A stretch of DNA of 64,000 nucleotides from Syntrophomonas sp. GTDB lineage: Bacteria > Bacillota > Syntrophomonadia > Syntrophomonadales > Syntrophomonadaceae. The stretch lies in NCBI GenBank assembly GCA_016841425.1, contig JAENZE010000001.1, positions 310,001-374,000 on the forward strand, given 5' to 3'. The notes under the pieces are model-generated. The model had not been told where the DNA came from. It ran no database searches and saw only the letters and a program-made list of their open reading frames with translations. Shown piece by piece: positions 2,207-36,608 of the stretch (its first letter is position 1; each line of letters starts with the position of its first letter). The position numbers and the translations under genes were made by a program.

Positions 2207-4048
2207 ATGAAAGATAAGATTTTTAGAGATATCCTGCCTAACGTTTCAAAGCCAGCTCGTTATACGGGCAGTGAAGTGAATATTATTAAAAAAGACTGGA
2301 ACAGAAGCAGGATAAAGATGGCTTTTGCTTTTCCCGATGTTTATGAAGTGGGAATGTCACATGTAGGCAGTAAGATATTGTATGGATTGATTAATGAGAA
2401 GAGCGACCACCTACTGGAGAGAGTATATGCTCCATGGCCGGACATGGAAAGAGAATTGCGCAGGCATGAAATTCCGCTTTTTGCCCTGGAGTCTTTTAGA
2501 CCATTGAGCGAATTTGATGTAATAGGGTTTACGCTGCAGTACGAATTAGCTATTACCAATGTATTAAATATGCTGGATATGGCTGGTATACCTTTGTGGT
2601 CTAAGGATAGGCACGAACAATTCCCACTGGTAATTGCCGGAGGTCCGGTGGTTTTTAATCCAGAACCATATGCGGATTTTATTGATGTATTCTTACTGGG
2701 AGATGGAGAGGAAGTTCTAACTGAGTTCCTGGATTGCTGCTGGGATAATCAGCATTTAAAGAGACAGGACCGGCTATTGAAACTGGCCTCAATTGAAGGT
2801 ATCTATGTGCCTTCCTTATACAACGTTAAATATAATGAGGATAGAACTTTCAGCCAGATAACACCGCTGATAGCATCGGTTCCCCATACCATTAAAAAGA
2901 GAGTGGTAATTGACCTGGATAATGCCTATTTCCCAGACAAACCGGTATTACCCTATATGACAATAGTTCATGATCGGGCGGTGCTGGAAGTTATGCGAGG
3001 ATGCCAGCGGGGCTGCCGTTTTTGTCACGCAGGTATGGTATACCGACCGGTTAGAGAGAGGAGTATCGAGACTCTTAAACGGCAGGCAGATCAGCAGCTG
3101 GCTAGTACTGGGTACGATGAAATAGGTCTTACTTCCCTCAGCACCCTGGATTATTCTGGAGTAGATAGTCTGGTTAAAGACCTGGTTAAAAAATACCGTG
3201 AACAGGGTACCGGAGTATCATTGCCATCCCTGCGAGTAGATGCCTTTTCTATTGAACTGGCCAATGAGGTACAGAAAGTTCGAAAAACTACCCTTACCCT
3301 GGCACCAGAAGCAGGTACCCAGAGAATGAGGGATATGATCAACAAGAACGTAACCGAGGAACAGCTGTTGGAAGCAGTAAAAGCTGCATTCAAATCAGGA
3401 TGGTTATCCATAAAATTATATTTTATGGATGGACTGCCCGGGGAGACGGATGCTGATCTGGAGGGGATATTGGATTTACTTAAGAAAGTAAGGACTTTAG
3501 GAGATGAGCATGCTAGAAAGAAAGTGGAGATACGGGCCAGTATTGCCTCTTTTGTTCCCAAAGCCCATACTCCATTCCAGTGGCAACGCCAGAATACTAT
3601 TCAAGAATTAGAAGAGAAAAGAAGAGTTTTGACTCGCAGTAAAATGAAGCGAATTAGAATGAGTTTTCACGATAGCCGGACTAGTTTTCTGGAGGGGGTA
3701 TTATCACGTGGAGATAGGCGGTTGGCTGTACCAATCCATTTGGCCTGGCAGAAAGGCAGCAAATTTGATGGATGGTCAGAATACTTTAATTTCAGCCGCT
3801 GGATGGAGGCTTTCAGGGATTCCGATATCGATCCGGATTTCTACACTTCTCGCCTGCGTTCCTATGACGAGATACTTCCCTGGGATTTTATTGATACCGG
3901 AGTAAGTAAAGCTTATCTGCAGAATGAGAATGAAAAAGCAGCCGCAGGTATCACTACTGGAGATTGCCGCTGGGATGGATGTTCTGGATGTGGGATATGC
4001 CCTGCTTATGAGATAGATCTCGATATCAAGGAGGAAATTGGGAGATGA
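2207..4048 (+). CDS. B12-binding-domain radical SAM protein (TIGR03960-type)
   Basis: 613 residues from the ATG that follows GGAGG by 6 bases; a longer in-frame start at 2186 has no ribosome-binding site. The N-terminal third resembles a cobalamin-binding-like domain. The radical-SAM motif CX3CX2C (Cys266, Cys270, Cys273) sits mid-protein and ligates the 4Fe-4S cluster used with S-adenosylmethionine. A Cys-rich C-terminal tail (CRWDGCSGCGIC) could bind another metal site. The stop overlaps the start of the DUF2344 gene (ATGA). This pair upstream of rng and rplU is conserved in Firmicutes, and in some genomes the two are fused. The substrate is unknown; RNA or ribosome modification is only a guess from context. 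Confidence 0.85.
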   Translation: MKDKIFRDILPNVSKPARYTGSEVNIIKKDWNRSRIKMAFAFPDVYEVGMSHVGSKILYGLINEKSDHLLERVYAPWPDMERELRRHEIPLFALESFRPLSEFDVIGFTLQYELAITNVLNMLDMAGIPLWSKDRHEQFPLVIAGGPVVFNPEPYADFIDVFLLGDGEEVLTEFLDCCWDNQHLKRQDRLLKLASIEGIYVPSLYNVKYNEDRTFSQITPLIASVPHTIKKRVVIDLDNAYFPDKPVLPYMTIVHDRAVLEVMRGCQRGCRFCHAGMVYRPVRERSIETLKRQADQQLASTGYDEIGLTSLSTLDYSGVDSLVKDLVKKYREQGTGVSLPSLRVDAFSIELANEVQKVRKTTLTLAPEAGTQRMRDMINKNVTEEQLLEAVKAAFKSGWLSIKLYFMDGLPGETDADLEGILDLLKKVRTLGDEHARKKVEIRASIASFVPKAHTPFQWQRQNTIQELEEKRRVLTRSKMKRIRMSFHDSRTSFLEGVLSRGDRRLAVPIHLAWQKGSKFDGWSEYFNFSRWMEAFRDSDIDPDFYTSRLRSYDEILPWDFIDTGVSKAYLQNENEKAAAGITTGDCRWDGCSGCGICPAYEIDLDIKEEIGR

Positions 4049-4725
4049 GGTTGAGAGCTGAGTACCTGGTGGGGAGTGATCTGAAATTTTTAGGTAATCT
4101 GGATATGATGAACCTTATGTCCAGGGCTATGCGGAGGGCTGGTATTCCATTTGCCTTGAGTGAGGGATTTAATCCTCATATCAAGTTGTCTATGGGCACA
4201 GTTCTGCCGGTAGGGGTGTGGGGAGACAAGGAATATTTCGATTTGGAGTTAACCCAGGACATGGACCCAAATGAATTTATGAAAAAAATGAATCATGTTC
4301 TGCCTTTGGAGATGGAAATCAAGCAGTGTGTTAAAATAGATGAAAAAGAGCCGGCGCTGATGAAAATTATTAATGCCGCGAGCTATACTTTTATATTGAA
4401 ACTAATAGATCACGGATACTTTGATATATCAGATAGAATTATGAGTCAAAACGAATTACTGGTAAGAAGCAGGGGTAAGCAAAAAGGGATTGATAAGGAT
4501 TTGCGTCCAGGTATTTTCAAAATTACTGTTAACTTCCAGCAGGAGTCTGTTATGATAAGTATATGGGTGAATGTAGGGGAGCCAGTAAATGTTCGTTATG
4601 ACGAATTGCTGGAATTATTAGAAGACTACGGCATAGAACGCGAAGAGGTTGTAGATATATTCCGCAGCGGAAATTTCATACGAGCTGGCAATTTATTTTA
4701 TTCTCCGTTTGAAAAGGTGAGTTAG
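4045..4725 (+). CDS. DUF2344/TIGR03936 radical-SAM-associated protein
   Basis: 226 residues. The family-typical N-terminus reads RLRAEYLVGSDLKFLGNLD, followed by a GFNPHIKLSMG motif. It overlaps the radical-SAM gene by 4 bases and directly abuts rng, so the three genes form one transcript. It probably acts as the partner subunit of the radical-SAM enzyme. No biochemical function is known to me. Confidence 0.85.
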   Translation: MRLRAEYLVGSDLKFLGNLDMMNLMSRAMRRAGIPFALSEGFNPHIKLSMGTVLPVGVWGDKEYFDLELTQDMDPNEFMKKMNHVLPLEMEIKQCVKIDEKEPALMKIINAASYTFILKLIDHGYFDISDRIMSQNELLVRSRGKQKGIDKDLRPGIFKITVNFQQESVMISIWVNVGEPVNVRYDELLELLEDYGIEREEVVDIFRSGNFIRAGNLFYSPFEKVS

Positions 4726-6153
4726 TTGGAAAGAGAAATTATTGTCGAGATATATCCATGGGAATCAAGAGTAGCTATTGTTGAAAATGGCCGGTTGGTT
4801 GAAATATTCTGGGCTGACCAGAATGATAATGTAGGGAATATTTATAAAGGCCGGGTAAAAGATATAATACCTGGTCTATCCTGCGCTTTTATAGATATAG
4901 GTTTGGCCAAGAATGCCTTTCTTTATAAGGGCGATATTATAGTACCTGGTTTCAAAAGGGGAGCCAACATTTTCGATCTCTTGAAAAGTGGACAGGAGAT
5001 AATGGTGCAGGTTAAAAAGGAGGCCTTCTCAGACAAAGGGGCTCGAGTAACTGGGAACATGACTATCCCAGGTCATTATCTGGTCTTACTGCCCTTCCAG
5101 AACGAAGTATCCATTTCAAGAAAGATAACCAATAATGACCGTCGTGAATATCTGCGAACTATTATCGAGTTATATAAACCGGACAATATGGGGGTAATAG
5201 TTAGAACTGCATGTATGGACGCCAAGGATGACGAATTAGTTTCTGAATTACAGGAACTCCTGCAGGTATGGTTAGATATTAAAGAACGCTATGATAGGGC
5301 TCGTACTCCCAGCCTTATTTATGAAGATATAGATACTCTGGAAAGGACTCTCAGAGAATATCTGGATGTTCAAATATCAAGAATCATTATTAATAATAGA
5401 AAGCTTAAAGACCGGATAAGCGCTTATGTAGATAAGAAACACGCTTCCTGCCGGGAAATCATATATGAAGAAGGAGCACTATTTGAAAAATACGGATTAG
5501 AAAAGGATGTTAAGAGGACTCTGCGCCGAAAGGTGTGGCTAAAAAATGGCGGCTACTTGATTATCGATGAAACTGAAGCTATGACAGTAATAGACGTTAA
5601 CAGTGGTAAGTACACGGGCAAAGATGATTTCGAGGATACGGTTTTTAAACTGAATATGGAAGCAGCGATTGAGATTCCAAGACAGCTGCGTCTGAGGAGC
5701 ATCGGTGGAATAGTTTTAATTGATTTCATCGATATGAAAAACAAAGAAAATCAAGAGGAAGTTATTAATACTCTCAGAACTAAACTTGCCAAAGATAAGG
5801 CCAATACTAGAATAGTAGGTATGACCGGCCTGGGATTTCTGGAAATGACTCGGAAAAAATCCCGCTATGGGGTAATTGAATTTTTCGCGGATGACTGTAC
5901 CCATTGTAATGGTAGGGGCCGTACCATTAGCCTGGCTGCAGTATGCTGCGAGATTAAAAGAAAGCTGATAACCATGGACTACATAGAAAATGAAGAAATT
6001 ATTTGCGAGGCCAACCCAGAACTTATAAAGGTATTGTCGGAGGATAAAGCTGACCTGGATTACATCGAGAAACGGATTGGCAAAAAGCTGAAACTGGCGT
6101 CCAAGTCAAAGTATGGAACTGCAGAATACAACATTCTTTCATCTTCTTATTAA
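4726..6153 (+). CDS. rng: Ribonuclease G/E family endoribonuclease
   Basis: 475 residues, the length of RNase G rather than RNase E. An S1 RNA-binding domain (about 35-120) is followed by the catalytic region with the magnesium-binding Asp motifs TVIDVNSGKYTG and LIDFIDM, and the zinc-link sequence CTHCNGRG near residue 395. The start is TTG immediately after the preceding TAG, with AGGTGAG upstream. The enzyme cuts single-stranded A/U-rich RNA and matures rRNA and mRNA in the cytoplasm. Its place just before rplU-prp-rpmA matches many Clostridia. Confidence 0.92.
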   Translation: MEREIIVEIYPWESRVAIVENGRLVEIFWADQNDNVGNIYKGRVKDIIPGLSCAFIDIGLAKNAFLYKGDIIVPGFKRGANIFDLLKSGQEIMVQVKKEAFSDKGARVTGNMTIPGHYLVLLPFQNEVSISRKITNNDRREYLRTIIELYKPDNMGVIVRTACMDAKDDELVSELQELLQVWLDIKERYDRARTPSLIYEDIDTLERTLREYLDVQISRIIINNRKLKDRISAYVDKKHASCREIIYEEGALFEKYGLEKDVKRTLRRKVWLKNGGYLIIDETEAMTVIDVNSGKYTGKDDFEDTVFKLNMEAAIEIPRQLRLRSIGGIVLIDFIDMKNKENQEEVINTLRTKLAKDKANTRIVGMTGLGFLEMTRKKSRYGVIEFFADDCTHCNGRGRTISLAAVCCEIKRKLITMDYIENEEIICEANPELIKVLSEDKADLDYIEKRIGKKLKLASKSKYGTAEYNILSSSY

Positions 6154-6314
6154 AGTTATCCTGGATTGGAGTTTGCTTGACTTAAGAGGCTGAATATGTT
6201 AAATTTGCTTGTGGGTTGCATGTTTGGCAACCGCTCAGTTCAGGTTATCAAAAAGGCTCTGAGCCTACCTGCTAACTGGCGAGTCTTAATAAACATGGAG
6301 GTGCTTATAAAAAA
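6154..6314 (+). promoter_or_regulatory. Probable ribosomal protein L21 leader
   Basis: 161-base leader between rng and rplU with several short complementary segments (for example around 6218-6240 and 6256-6285). Firmicutes carry a structured L21 leader here, thought to bind L21 and control rplU-prp-rpmA. I infer the identity from position and from foldable sequence. I could not match the covariance model by eye. Confidence 0.45.
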
Positions 6315-31672: not shown

Positions 31673-34150
31673 CTATTTAGCTACAATATTAACCAACTTC
31701 CGGGGAACTACAATTATTTTGTTGATCTGTTTACCACTGGTAAGTTCCTTGATCTTTTCCAGTTGAAGCGCCCTGTTTTTCAGTTCCTCTTCCGTGATTT
31801 CAGCAGGAACCCGCAGATGGTCTCTTACTTTACCCATTACCTGTACAACTATCTCAATTTCATCTTGAATCAGGGCTTGCGGATCATATTCCGGCCATTT
31901 CTGCTGACACACACTGCCTTCATTTTGGCACAGATGCCAGAGTTCCTCACATATATGAGGAGTAAAAGGACTCAGCAAGACCAGCAGGGTCTGCAGGGCT
32001 TCTTTAACTACTGCTAAATCAGGCTGCTCCTTATCCTTGTAGGCGGTGAGTGTATTAGAAAGCTCCATAATAGCGCTGATGGCTGTGTTAAAATTAAAGC
32101 GATCACCTACGTCTTCAGTAACCTTCTTGATAGTAGCATGGGTTTTGAAACGCAGGTCTCGGGCATCATTATTCAGGTTTTCAAAAGTATCAGGTACCTT
32201 GATGTCCTGGATGGACCTGGCGTATTCCCTTACCAGTCGCCAAATACGATTCAAGAACCGGTAGGCTCCCTCAACTCCCTGGTCGCTCCATTCCAAATCT
32301 CTTTCTGGAGGAGAAGCAAAGAGTATGAACAACCGCGCCGTGTCAGCCCCATAGGTTCTGATAATCTCTTCCGGGCTTACCACATTCCCTTTTGATTTAG
32401 ACATCTTGGAACTGTCTTTTAGAACCATACCCTGAGTGAGCAGGTTAGTAAATGGTTCTTCACAGGAGAGCATGTTAATATCATAGAGGAACTTGGTGAA
32501 AAACCGGGCGTACATCAAGTGGAGAATGGCGTGTTCCACTCCTCCAATATACTGGTCCACCGGCATCCAGTAATCAACTGCCTCTTTGCTGAAGGGCACA
32601 TCTACTTCATTGGGACTGCAGTAACGGTCAAAGTACCAGCTGGAGCAGACAAAGGTGTCCATGGTATCTGTCTCCCGCCGGGCTTCTCCGCCGCAATCAG
32701 GGCAGGTAGCGCGGGTAAAGCTCTCCACGTAATTAAGGGGCGACTCCCCCGAGGGCCTAAATTCCACATCTTCGGGCAGGAGTACTGGCAGTTGATCCTC
32801 TGTAAGGCATACTATACCGCACTTTTCGCAATATACTACTGGTATTGGTGCACCCCAGTAGCGCTGGCGGGATATTAACCAGTCCCGCAGCCTGAAGTTA
32901 ATCGTTCCGCTGCCGATATTATTATCTTCCATATATTTGATCACTGAAGATATACCTTCCTGAACCTCAAGTCCATTGAAAGCTTCGGAGTTCACCATTA
33001 TTCCATCTCCGGTGTATGCTTCAGTCATATCTTTGGCGTCCGCAGGGGAATCCTCACTTTTTATAACTACCCTAATGGGTATATCATATTTACAAGCAAA
33101 ATCAAAGTCTCTCTGATCATGGGCTGGAACTGCCATTATCGCACCAGTGCCATAATCCATCAAGACGTAATTGGCAATCCAGATTGGTATCCTTTCGCCG
33201 TTCATGGGATTAACAGCGTATGCGCCGGTAAAAACCCCTTCCTTTTCAGCATCAGTTGCAGTCCGGGCCAGTTCAGTTATGTTTTTCATACCCTGAACAA
33301 ACTTACTTACTGCTGATTCTTCAGGGCGACCCGCCGAAATTTTCTCTACCAAAGGATGTTCGGGTGCCAGAACCATGTAAGTAACCCCGAATACCGTATC
33401 CGGACGGGTAGTGAAAACCGTCATTGATTCATCCAAACCTTCTATTGGCATAGAAAACTGGCAGCCTTCGCTGCGTCCTATCCAGTTTCTTTGCATAGTT
33501 TTAACTTTTTCGGGCCAGCCCGGCAGTTTTTCCAGGTCATCCAGCAGCCTCTGGGCGTAATCAGTTATTTTAAAGAACCACTGCTCCAGCTGTTTTTTCT
33601 CCACCTCGGCCTCACAGCGTTCACAGGCTCCATCGACTACCTGTTCGTTGGCCAGTACTGTCTGGCAGGATGGGCACCAGTTTACCGCTGATTTCTTTTT
33701 ATAGGCCAACCCATTTTCATAAAGCTTAACAAACATCCATTGGGTAAATTTATAATAATCAGGTTTACAGGTAGCCAGCTCGCGATCCCAGTCGTAACTG
33801 ATACCCATGGTTTTAAGCTGTTGTTTCATATTTTCAATATTCGCATTGGTCCATACAGCAGGGTGAGTTGCATTTTTTATAGCCGCATTTTCAGCCGGAA
33901 GGCCAAAAGCGTCCCAACCCATAGGATGCAGTACATTATAACCGTTCATACTCTTGAAACGGGCCACTACATCACCTATAGCATAGTTGCGAACGTGTCC
34001 CATATGTAGATTGCCTGATGGGTAGGGGAACATTTCCAGATCATAATATTTCGGTTTATCAGTATCTTCGCTTACTTTAAAGAAATGGTTTTCTTCCCAG
34101 TATTTTTGCCATTTTTCTTCTATAGACCGGTGATCATACTTACTGCTCAT
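31673..34150 (-). CDS. leuS: Leucyl-tRNA synthetase
   Basis: 825 residues, full length bacterial LeuRS. HMGH version of the HIGH motif ([12 protein letters not shown], about residue 50), KMSKS motif ([11 protein letters not shown]), zinc-binding Cys clusters (CPSCQ, CERCE), the CP1 editing domain, and a C-terminal anticodon domain. AAGGAGG precedes the ATG. A T-box leader upstream should raise expression when tRNA-Leu is uncharged. Confidence 0.98.
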
Positions 34151-34180: not shown

Positions 34181-34520
34181 AAAAAAGCTCATCCCCGGCA
34201 AGGGACGAGAGATGTTTTCCCGCGGTACCACCCTTATTGACAGATACAATAATGGTGGAGCTAGTGGGATTCGAACCCACGACCTCTTGAATGCCATTCA
34301 AGCGCGCTCCCAACTGCGCCATAGCCCCACGTCATGTCCACTCGGAATTATAACGGAATTTCCGTCACAGGCTAAATATCACCTGTGAAGCTCCCCGGTG
34401 AGTTCAACTGGCATTATATCGTCTCACACCATCCGACGATTCTCTGAAATCGCCTGTCTACTACTCCGGCTCGATGCTTTCTATTATTAAATTGCATACT
34501 ATAAGCGCTTTTCATCCACG
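34181..34520 (-). promoter_or_regulatory. T-box leader of leuS (with a tRNA gene inside)
   Basis: On the minus strand the T-box AAGGGTGGTACCGCGGG is at 34235-34219. It is followed by a terminator stem CTCGTCCC / GGGATGAG (34209-34202 with 34195-34188) and a six-T run (34186-34181), 30 bases before leuS. Upstream, 34500-34340 folds like a Stem I region, and a CTC (Leu) codon at 34402-34400 is a candidate specifier. A complete tRNA-Ala lies between the Stem I part and the T-box (34328-34253), which is not normal for this element. Confidence 0.88.
34253..34328 (-). tRNA. tRNA-Ala (anticodon GGC), CCA encoded
   Basis: 76 bases with all arms. The acceptor GGGGCTA pairs with TAGCTCC (one G-T). The D arm is GCGC...GCGC, the anticodon arm CTTGA-ATGGCAT-TCAAG, the T arm GTGGG-TTCGAAT-CCCAC. 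Discriminator A and a genome-encoded CCA follow. It lies wholly inside the leuS T-box leader and in the same orientation. A TATAAT at about 34361-34356 (minus strand) might give it a promoter of its own, but the -35 is poor. Confidence 0.95.
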
Positions 34521-34526
34521 AGCAAT

Positions 34527-34555
34527 ATTATAGAATATAAAATGATGGAACGCAA
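34527..34555 (-). promoter_or_regulatory. Sigma-A promoter for the T-box/tRNA-Ala/leuS transcript
   Basis: On the minus strand TTGCGT (34555-34550), 17-base spacer, TATAAT (34532-34527). Transcription would start near 34520 and run through Stem I, the tRNA, the T-box and leuS. Confidence 0.75.
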
Positions 34556-35264: not shown

Positions 35265-36608
35265 ATGGGTTATATTGAAGAATACAAAAGCAAGCTGGTT
35301 TCTCCGGAAGAAGCTGTTAAAGTAGTTAAATCTGGAGATTGGTTAGATTATGGTTCCTTTAATGGTCAGGTTAGAGCCCTGGATGAAGCCCTGGCCAAAA
35401 GAAAAGATGAATTGGAAGATGTTAAGATCTGGACCTGTGTAAACCCTTATCCAACCAAGGTCAACGAGGTAGATCCCATAGGTGATTCCTTTGTCTGGAT
35501 GAGCTGGCATACTTCTGGAGCAGATCGGAAAATAGCCAAGACTGGAAAGCCAGTTTACTATTCATCAATAAAATATTCTGAACTGCCGCGTTATGTAAGA
35601 GAAAGGATTGAACCTCTTGATGTAGCCATGCTGCAGGTCTGCCCCATCGATAAACATGGGTTTTTCAATTTCGGGCCTCAGGTTACTCACAGCCGGGCAG
35701 TATGTGATAGGGCTAAAGTAATAATGGTTGAAGTAAATGAACATCAGCCGCGCTGTCTGGGTGGATATGAGGAGAAGGTCCACATTTCAGAGGTTGATTT
35801 TATCGTAGAAAGCAACTTGCCTTTAACTCAAATACCTGCTCCGCCAGTTGGCGATATTGATAAGAAAATAGCCGAATATATCATATCAGAAATGAGTGAT
35901 GGCAGCTGTGTGCAGCTGGGTATCGGAGGCATTCCCAATGCTGTAGGTATGATGATAGCTGAATCAGATTTAAAAGATCTGAGCTGTCACACTGAGATGC
36001 TGGTAGATGCCTATGTATACATGGACATGGCTGGTAAGATGACTGGGAAATACAAGGGGATAGATCCCGGCAAATTAGTGTATACTTTTGCCCTGGGAAC
36101 CAAGATGCTCTATGATTTCATCGATGACAATCCCAAATGTGCTGCCTATCCCGTTGACTACACCAATGAACCTTATATTGCCTCCCGGAACGAAAAATTG
36201 ATGACCATTAATAATGCTATCGAAATAGATATATATGGTCAGTGCTGTTCAGAATCACACGGTACACGTCATATAAGCGGTACTGGAGGACAGCTGGACT
36301 TTGTATTGGCGGGATGGTTATCAAAAGGCGGGAAATCTTTTGTAGCCTCACCAGCTGCGAACTACAAGGACGGAAAAGCAGTATCATCGAGAATAGTACC
36401 TACTCTTACCACCGGAGCAATCGTTACTGATCCCAGATCAGTTGCTGATTATATAGTCACCGAGTTTGGTATGTATGCTATGAAAGGTATGTCAGTCTGG
36501 CAGCGTGCTGAAGGTTTAATCAACATAGCTCATCCGGATTTCAGAGATGATCTGGTCAAAGCCGCTACAGCTCAGGGCATCTGGAAGAAAACCAACAAGA
36601 TCAGTTAA
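35265..36608 (+). CDS. Butyryl-CoA:acetate-type CoA-transferase (acetyl-CoA hydrolase/transferase family)
   Basis: 447 residues. CoA-site GIGGIPNAVG and catalytic Glu244 in CHTEMLVDAYVYM, then YTFALGTKMLYDFIDDNPKCAAYPVDYTN, a stretch typical of butyryl-CoA:acetate transferases. GAAGGAGG precedes the ATG. It is monocistronic with a strong terminator. In a butyrate oxidiser this enzyme would activate butyrate using acetyl-CoA, and in the reverse direction recover acetate. Substrate assignment is by family resemblance only. Confidence 0.9.
   Translation: MGYIEEYKSKLVSPEEAVKVVKSGDWLDYGSFNGQVRALDEALAKRKDELEDVKIWTCVNPYPTKVNEVDPIGDSFVWMSWHTSGADRKIAKTGKPVYYSSIKYSELPRYVRERIEPLDVAMLQVCPIDKHGFFNFGPQVTHSRAVCDRAKVIMVEVNEHQPRCLGGYEEKVHISEVDFIVESNLPLTQIPAPPVGDIDKKIAEYIISEMSDGSCVQLGIGGIPNAVGMMIAESDLKDLSCHTEMLVDAYVYMDMAGKMTGKYKGIDPGKLVYTFALGTKMLYDFIDDNPKCAAYPVDYTNEPYIASRNEKLMTINNAIEIDIYGQCCSESHGTRHISGTGGQLDFVLAGWLSKGGKSFVASPAANYKDGKAVSSRIVPTLTTGAIVTDPRSVADYIVTEFGMYAMKGMSVWQRAEGLINIAHPDFRDDLVKAATAQGIWKKTNKIS

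Follow-up and report, generated by a model that had tools for sequence, protein, structure and literature searches.

In a T-box riboswitch, an uncharged tRNA that contacts both Stem I and the T-box bulge stabilizes an antiterminator, and a charged tRNA leaves the terminator in place. The canonical leuS T-box (RF00230) consists of a Stem I with a CUC specifier, Stem II and the IIA/B region, a discriminator of the form RRRxG-Stem III-AA with a short Stem III loop, the T-box sequence and a terminator that shares a strand with the antiterminator, with leuS located downstream. Mixed tRNA-mRNA operons, such as thrU-tyrU-glyT-thrT-tufB and metY-nusA-infB in E. coli, are made as one transcript, the parts of which are separated by processing. 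With regard to T-box leaders themselves, that of B. subtilis thrS is cut by RNase J1/J2 (PMC2777011), the Stem III located between RRRxG and AA is an indispensable part of the discriminator, which senses the tRNA 3' end (PMC7583486), and T-box insertions without an assigned function have been reviewed in the same work.

The locus described here shares all of these elements with the canonical leuS T-box but differs in the Stem III loop, which is not short and instead holds a complete, apparently functional tRNA-Ala gene. As in the mixed operons, a tRNA and an mRNA lie on one transcript that processing would part; there, however, the tRNA stands beside the mRNA, whereas here it is nested in a tRNA-sensing riboswitch, between the two sites that contact tRNA. 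Similarly to the thrS leader, cleavage of a T-box leader and a new 5' end for the downstream mRNA would be expected, although in this case the cut would be made by tRNA-processing enzymes and would release a tRNA. The reviewed insertions (PMC7583486) and tandem T-boxes similarly add sequence to the variable regions of a T-box, Stem III among them, but none of the described insertions that we found is a tRNA gene. Likewise, the open-licence literature, including T-box reviews, and databases yielded no account of a tRNA gene nested in a T-box, and an earlier report may exist elsewhere. The parts are all of known kinds, and the nesting is what is new: a regulatory RNA whose sensing of a tRNA depends on its being in one piece harbors another tRNA, which needs to be excised, and this poses the question of the order in which sensing, termination and tRNA processing take place on one nascent RNA.

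The whole stretch of 64,000 nucleotides of Syntrophomonas sp. DNA that was analyzed is called the window here, and the leader lies on its minus strand. A first-pass annotation of the letters alone had described a promoter TTGCGT-N17-TATAAT, a candidate CTC specifier, a tRNA-Ala(GGC) with encoded CCA and then the T-box, the terminator and leuS, and all of them were located at the following positions:

34527-34555, minus strand: leader promoter, with -35 TTGCGT (34555-34550), a 17-nt spacer and -10 TATAAT (34532-34527); 9 of 12 consensus bases.
34390-34477, minus strand: T-box Stem I, from the RF00230 alignment.
34400-34402, minus strand: specifier codon CUC (Leu), with tRNA-Leu(GAG) as reader tRNA; placed in the RF00230 alignment.
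34349-34387, minus strand: Stem II / IIA-B region, with the helix CACAGG/CCUGUG and next ACGG..CCGUUA; from the RF00230 alignment.
34335-34343, minus strand: discriminator motif GAGUG (RRRxG, 34343-34339) and Stem III 5' arm GACA (34338-34335); from the sequence, the motif as in PMC7583486, and covariation.
34253-34328, minus strand: complete tRNA-Ala(GGC) in the Stem III loop, with G3:U70, A73 and encoded CCA; from ARAGORN and RF00005 (68.1 bits).
34237-34242, minus strand: Stem III 3' arm UGUC (34242-34239) and conserved AA (34238-34237); from the sequence and covariation.
34221-34233, minus strand: T-box sequence GGGUGGUACCGCG, in which UGGU (34230-34227) is the pairing partner of the tRNA-Leu 3' end; from the RF00230 alignment.
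34181-34209, minus strand: intrinsic terminator, hairpin 34209-34188 plus T run; from a terminator scan and the RF00230 alignment.
34209-34201, minus strand: 5' strand of the terminator, CUCGUCCCU, common to the antiterminator; from the RF00230 alignment.
31673-34150, minus strand: leuS, leucyl-tRNA synthetase, 825 aa; TIGR00396, 1168 bits, and open reading frame.

Covariance scoring with Rfam models yielded one T-box match, which covers the whole model, at 34483-34198 (RF00230, model positions 1-219, 115.9 bits, E=6e-25; gathering score 93 bits), the span of which includes a tRNA match at 34328-34256 (68.1 bits), typed by ARAGORN as tRNA-Ala(ggc) at 34328-34253 on the minus strand. The proposal that a tRNA-Ala gene lies within the leuS T-box leader was thereby borne out. 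In the RF00230 alignment the tRNA is contained in a 92-nt insert of the apical Stem III loop, flanked by the discriminator motifs RRRxG and AA, and the model needs both flanks of the tRNA, so that no T-box fits wholly downstream of it. Contrary to the first-pass annotation, the tRNA does not lie loosely beside the antiterminator; it occupies the loop of Stem III, the variable discriminator hairpin, which a covarying helix closes. The element belongs to the T-boxes by its full-length score above gathering, a CUC specifier that matches leuS, and the presence of GAGUG...AA and UGGU; similarly, the cloverleaf, the G3:U70 alanine identity and the GGC anticodon mark the nested tRNA as an apparently functional tRNA-Ala gene. 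A tRNA-Leu(gag) able to read the CUC specifier is encoded in the same genome, together with 11 other T-boxes, none of which contains a tRNA. A plain thermodynamic fold of the whole leader did not return the proposed architecture (z=-1.17), as expected of an RNA that has pseudoknot and kink-turn motifs, and lends this architecture no support.

Comparison of leuS leaders with and without the tRNA showed that it takes the place of the short Stem III loop, since an ordinary short Stem III hairpin occupies the same place in leuS T-boxes that lack it. For 82 distinct arm pairs, the mean Stem III energy was -9.43 kcal/mol with the leader's own arms versus -6.12 kcal/mol with swapped 3' arms, a real value that was reached in 0 of 20,000 permutations, and base pairs 1-4 of the helix were above shuffles in anchored covariation counts based on 49 distinct arm pairs. 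Helix length ranged from 4 to ~16 bp across species, with strong helices in some of them (-30.4 kcal/mol in L171) and short ones, of -3 to -6 kcal/mol, in many. As judged from this covariation, the two arms of Stem III pair around the nested tRNA.

In order to describe conservation, we refer to 95 distinct leaders that were gathered from other genomes. The embedded tRNA was tRNA-Ala(GGC) in every one of them. The specifier was CUC in each of the 94 leaders that have a readable Stem I, three of which were read by eye as GAGACUCGCC. A U at position -1 of the nested tRNA was present in 87 of the 95, with a short single-stranded 5' flank also kept, while G3 was found in 68/68 leaders of the first set and U70 in all 64 of these that end in CCA. 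With the insert in place, T-box scores of the relatives were mostly 94-142 bits, some divergent or truncated leaders scoring below 93, and the T-box core, the CUC, the discriminator motifs and the strand common to antiterminator and terminator were kept across very divergent genomes. The leuS gene was directly downstream in nearly all leaders; those without an adjoining leuS included some at the end of a contig or slice and others with leuS further on.

Several individual leaders deserve mention. An acyl-CoA-synthetase-like gene (458-2368), which may be under leucine T-box control, separates the T-box/tRNA leader from leuS in Desulfofundulus thermosubterraneus (L139), and in L331 (G102) about 2.8 kb of repeated DNA with a unit of ~662 bp (about 2650-5215) lies between leader and leuS. 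In family f23 (L206-L213 and L130), only ~35 nt extend from the specifier to Stem III; these leaders have the nested tRNA but seem to lack Stem II and the IIA/B pseudoknot. A metagenome-assembled genome labelled Coprothermobacterota (L184:2087-2325) has a T-box with a nested tRNA-Ala and a very short Stem I without its distal part. A degenerate tRNA in G031 was considered and rejected, as the otherwise intact nested tRNA is interrupted by an assembly gap (NN).

The copy number of tRNA-Ala(GGC) was obtained by combining a pattern search for this tRNA in 109 genomes with the census of leuS upstream regions presented below; GGC matches of 38-39 nt resembling tRNA-Leu variable arms, and a non-tRNA-like one in G139, were discounted. 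Of the 23 sampled genomes with the nested gene, 21 showed no further tRNA-Ala(GGC) gene, as befits a gene that the cell needs, and G087 and G125 each had one more. Of the 45 tRNAs of the single-contig genome G026, all of them typed, one was GGC (the nested gene), one CGC and one UGC. The assembly that contains the window holds GGC once and CGC once; some tRNAs are absent from it, probably those in unassembled rRNA operons.

Taken together, the leader is likely to be bifunctional, namely a leucine-specific, transcription-terminating T-box riboswitch in which a functional tRNA-Ala(GGC) gene serves as the Stem III loop, and one RNA appears to be both a regulator and the precursor of an essential tRNA. 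From this anatomy we infer the order of events, the processing enzymes and the response to leucine as follows. The RNA would start at the single promoter seen in the sequence, from a start site predicted accordingly, and the CUC of Stem I would bind tRNA-Leu(GAG), as is known for the family and in keeping with the reader tRNA present in the genome. The 5' arm of Stem III, the tRNA and the 3' arm would then be transcribed in this order, the tRNA folding alone and the arms pairing around it. Uncharged tRNA-Leu would stabilize the antiterminator and allow readthrough into leuS, and charged tRNA-Leu would leave the terminator. Because the tRNA is upstream of this decision point, it would be made on every initiation, whether leuS is read or not; each initiation would yield pre-tRNA-Ala, the terminated leader being itself a pre-tRNA, and T-box "off" transcripts can in this way be useful products. 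RNase P and 3' processing would later excise the tRNA, as suggested by the U at -1, the encoded CCA and the sole-copy status, and the leftover leuS mRNA would begin near Stem III or the antiterminator. Pairing in cis of the nested tRNA's CCA with the T-box bulge was rejected as a general mechanism, given that 13 of the 95 leaders encode no CCA there.

The first-pass annotation had recognized that processing would part Stem I from the antiterminator, and this tension is real. It had offered two ways out, the first of which, an insertion that is tolerated in a riboswitch acting before processing, is favored here: since Stem III closes around the tRNA via a covarying helix, the riboswitch could form around the tRNA before any cut, and regulation first and excision second is most likely, being the most economical order. 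We hold it to be rather unlikely that, according to the second, tRNA maturation is mechanistically coupled to leuS control; the nested tRNA-Ala would then be processed, by RNase P or at its 3' end, in competition with the T-box decision or so as to finish it, resulting in a partly two-piece riboswitch that Stem III and the bound tRNA-Leu hold together, and in a supply of tRNA-Ala(GGC) tied to leucine status. Also unlikely is a scenario in which processing sits within the switch itself, RNase P cutting the nascent leader ahead of T-box synthesis, parting Stem I from the antiterminator and forcing termination, so that leuS induction would depend on a race between RNase P and antitermination, or on the halves being kept together by Stem III as a split riboswitch. 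This would fit with a tRNA whose transcription is finished before that of the antiterminator, with the retention of U(-1) and of the short single-stranded 5' flank, and with a Stem III that at up to ~16 bp could hold a nicked RNA in some species, as in L171. However, the short helices of many species are unlikely to hold cut halves unaided, the timing is not visible in sequence, and the simpler reading has no need of coupling.

A bifunctional leader on one transcript also has to be weighed against two overlapping separate units, in which a promoter within the leader would serve the tRNA alone and the T-box, working or not, would be on another transcript, the overlap being an accident of compaction. 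Such a promoter has a candidate in the window, TAGCCT-N16-TATAAT (9/12), with a similar one in the genus, and some independent transcription of the tRNA from this site may occur at the window locus. This site, however, is not conserved in the 86 leaders in which promoters were scored, where the stretch from specifier to tRNA reached 6.36 versus 6.13 when shuffled, i.e., no better, while 59 of the 86 have a promoter with 10-12 of 12 consensus bases ahead of Stem I, at the place equivalent to the leader promoter of the window, where relatives read TTGACA/T-N17-TATAAT. Furthermore, a terminator scan of the region detected none ahead of the tRNA, the hairpin at 34209-34188 being the sole terminator-like site there on the minus strand, so that neither a promoter above chance nor a terminator separates Stem I from the tRNA; and separate units would have no need of covarying Stem III arms. 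We regard separate units as improbable. Even less probable is that one part is a relic, either a tRNA pseudogene or a T-box that does not switch; T-boxes have been lost in some lineages with the tRNA retained, but the tRNA is intact with its identity elements and usually the only GGC gene, and the conserved T-box elements listed above persist over very divergent genomes. Draft and metagenome assemblies account for many of the genomes, which would favor an assembly or annotation artifact, but the probability of this is negligible: the arrangement is present in the single-contig genomes G026, G041, G048, G054, G081 and G088 and in named isolates, among them D. thermosubterraneus DSM 16057 and Thermosyntropha lipolytica DSM 11003, and its recurrence across independent genomes already refutes an artifact.

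Among genomes with leader sequence, the arrangement was present in every one of the same genus (G001-G004) and in the majority of those from the same family and order. Of 299 genomes from the window's phylum, 60 matched a strict pattern, as did 24 of 301 from another phylum, to which a Thermomicrobiaceae genome, Ktedonobacter and Thermomicrobia belong, and the reversed control pattern gave 0 matches in the 600 genomes of both surveys. Chance is excluded as the origin of the arrangement, because it is the same in 95 distinct leaders and the reversed control never matched. When 84,980 species genomes were scanned by pattern for any tRNA T-arm near a T-box, at least 118 stretches matched, and among the matches listed tRNA-Ala(GGC) was the only tRNA identified by ARAGORN; other tRNAs within T-boxes were dismissed, the remaining examined matches among those listed being ordinary T-boxes or coding sequence. 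Such nested genes can escape surveys in which tRNAs are masked or T-boxes are scored on their own. That the arrangement is widespread, always with the same tRNA and gene and usually as the sole source of that tRNA, lay beyond the view of the first-pass annotation, and so did its age, which we read as ancient.

A census of 105 leuS upstream regions across the phylum revealed a T-box with tRNA-Ala in 23, a T-box only in 31, tRNA-Ala only in 2 and neither in 49. In a quick LeuS tree the combined state was strongly clustered but scattered, requiring at least 22 changes compared with 54.8 in shuffles. We read this as one old insertion followed by many losses, because the tRNA, its position, the specifier and the gene never differ in kind; the tree alone is no proof of it. 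In G072 (L349) and G077 (L341), a strong promoter is followed by tRNA-Ala(GGC), a hairpin terminator and leuS, and a covariance search of these leuS upstream regions found no T-box. The terminator of G072 still starts with CCUCGUCCCU, the T-box terminal motif, and both loci appear, from their sequence, to be relics in which the tRNA outlived the riboswitch. In the distant relatives G047 and G131 (L391, L392), a cluster of six tRNAs (Pro, Glu, Asp, Thr, Tyr, Gln) adjoins leuS upstream, without a T-box.

Elsewhere in the window, a ribosomal protein L21 leader was found at 6219-6296 on the plus strand (RF00559, 49.8 bits), and a butyryl-CoA:acetate CoA-transferase-like gene at 35265-36608, also on the plus strand (TIGR03948, 582 bits, below the cut-off of 674.8), is divergent from the leuS leader.
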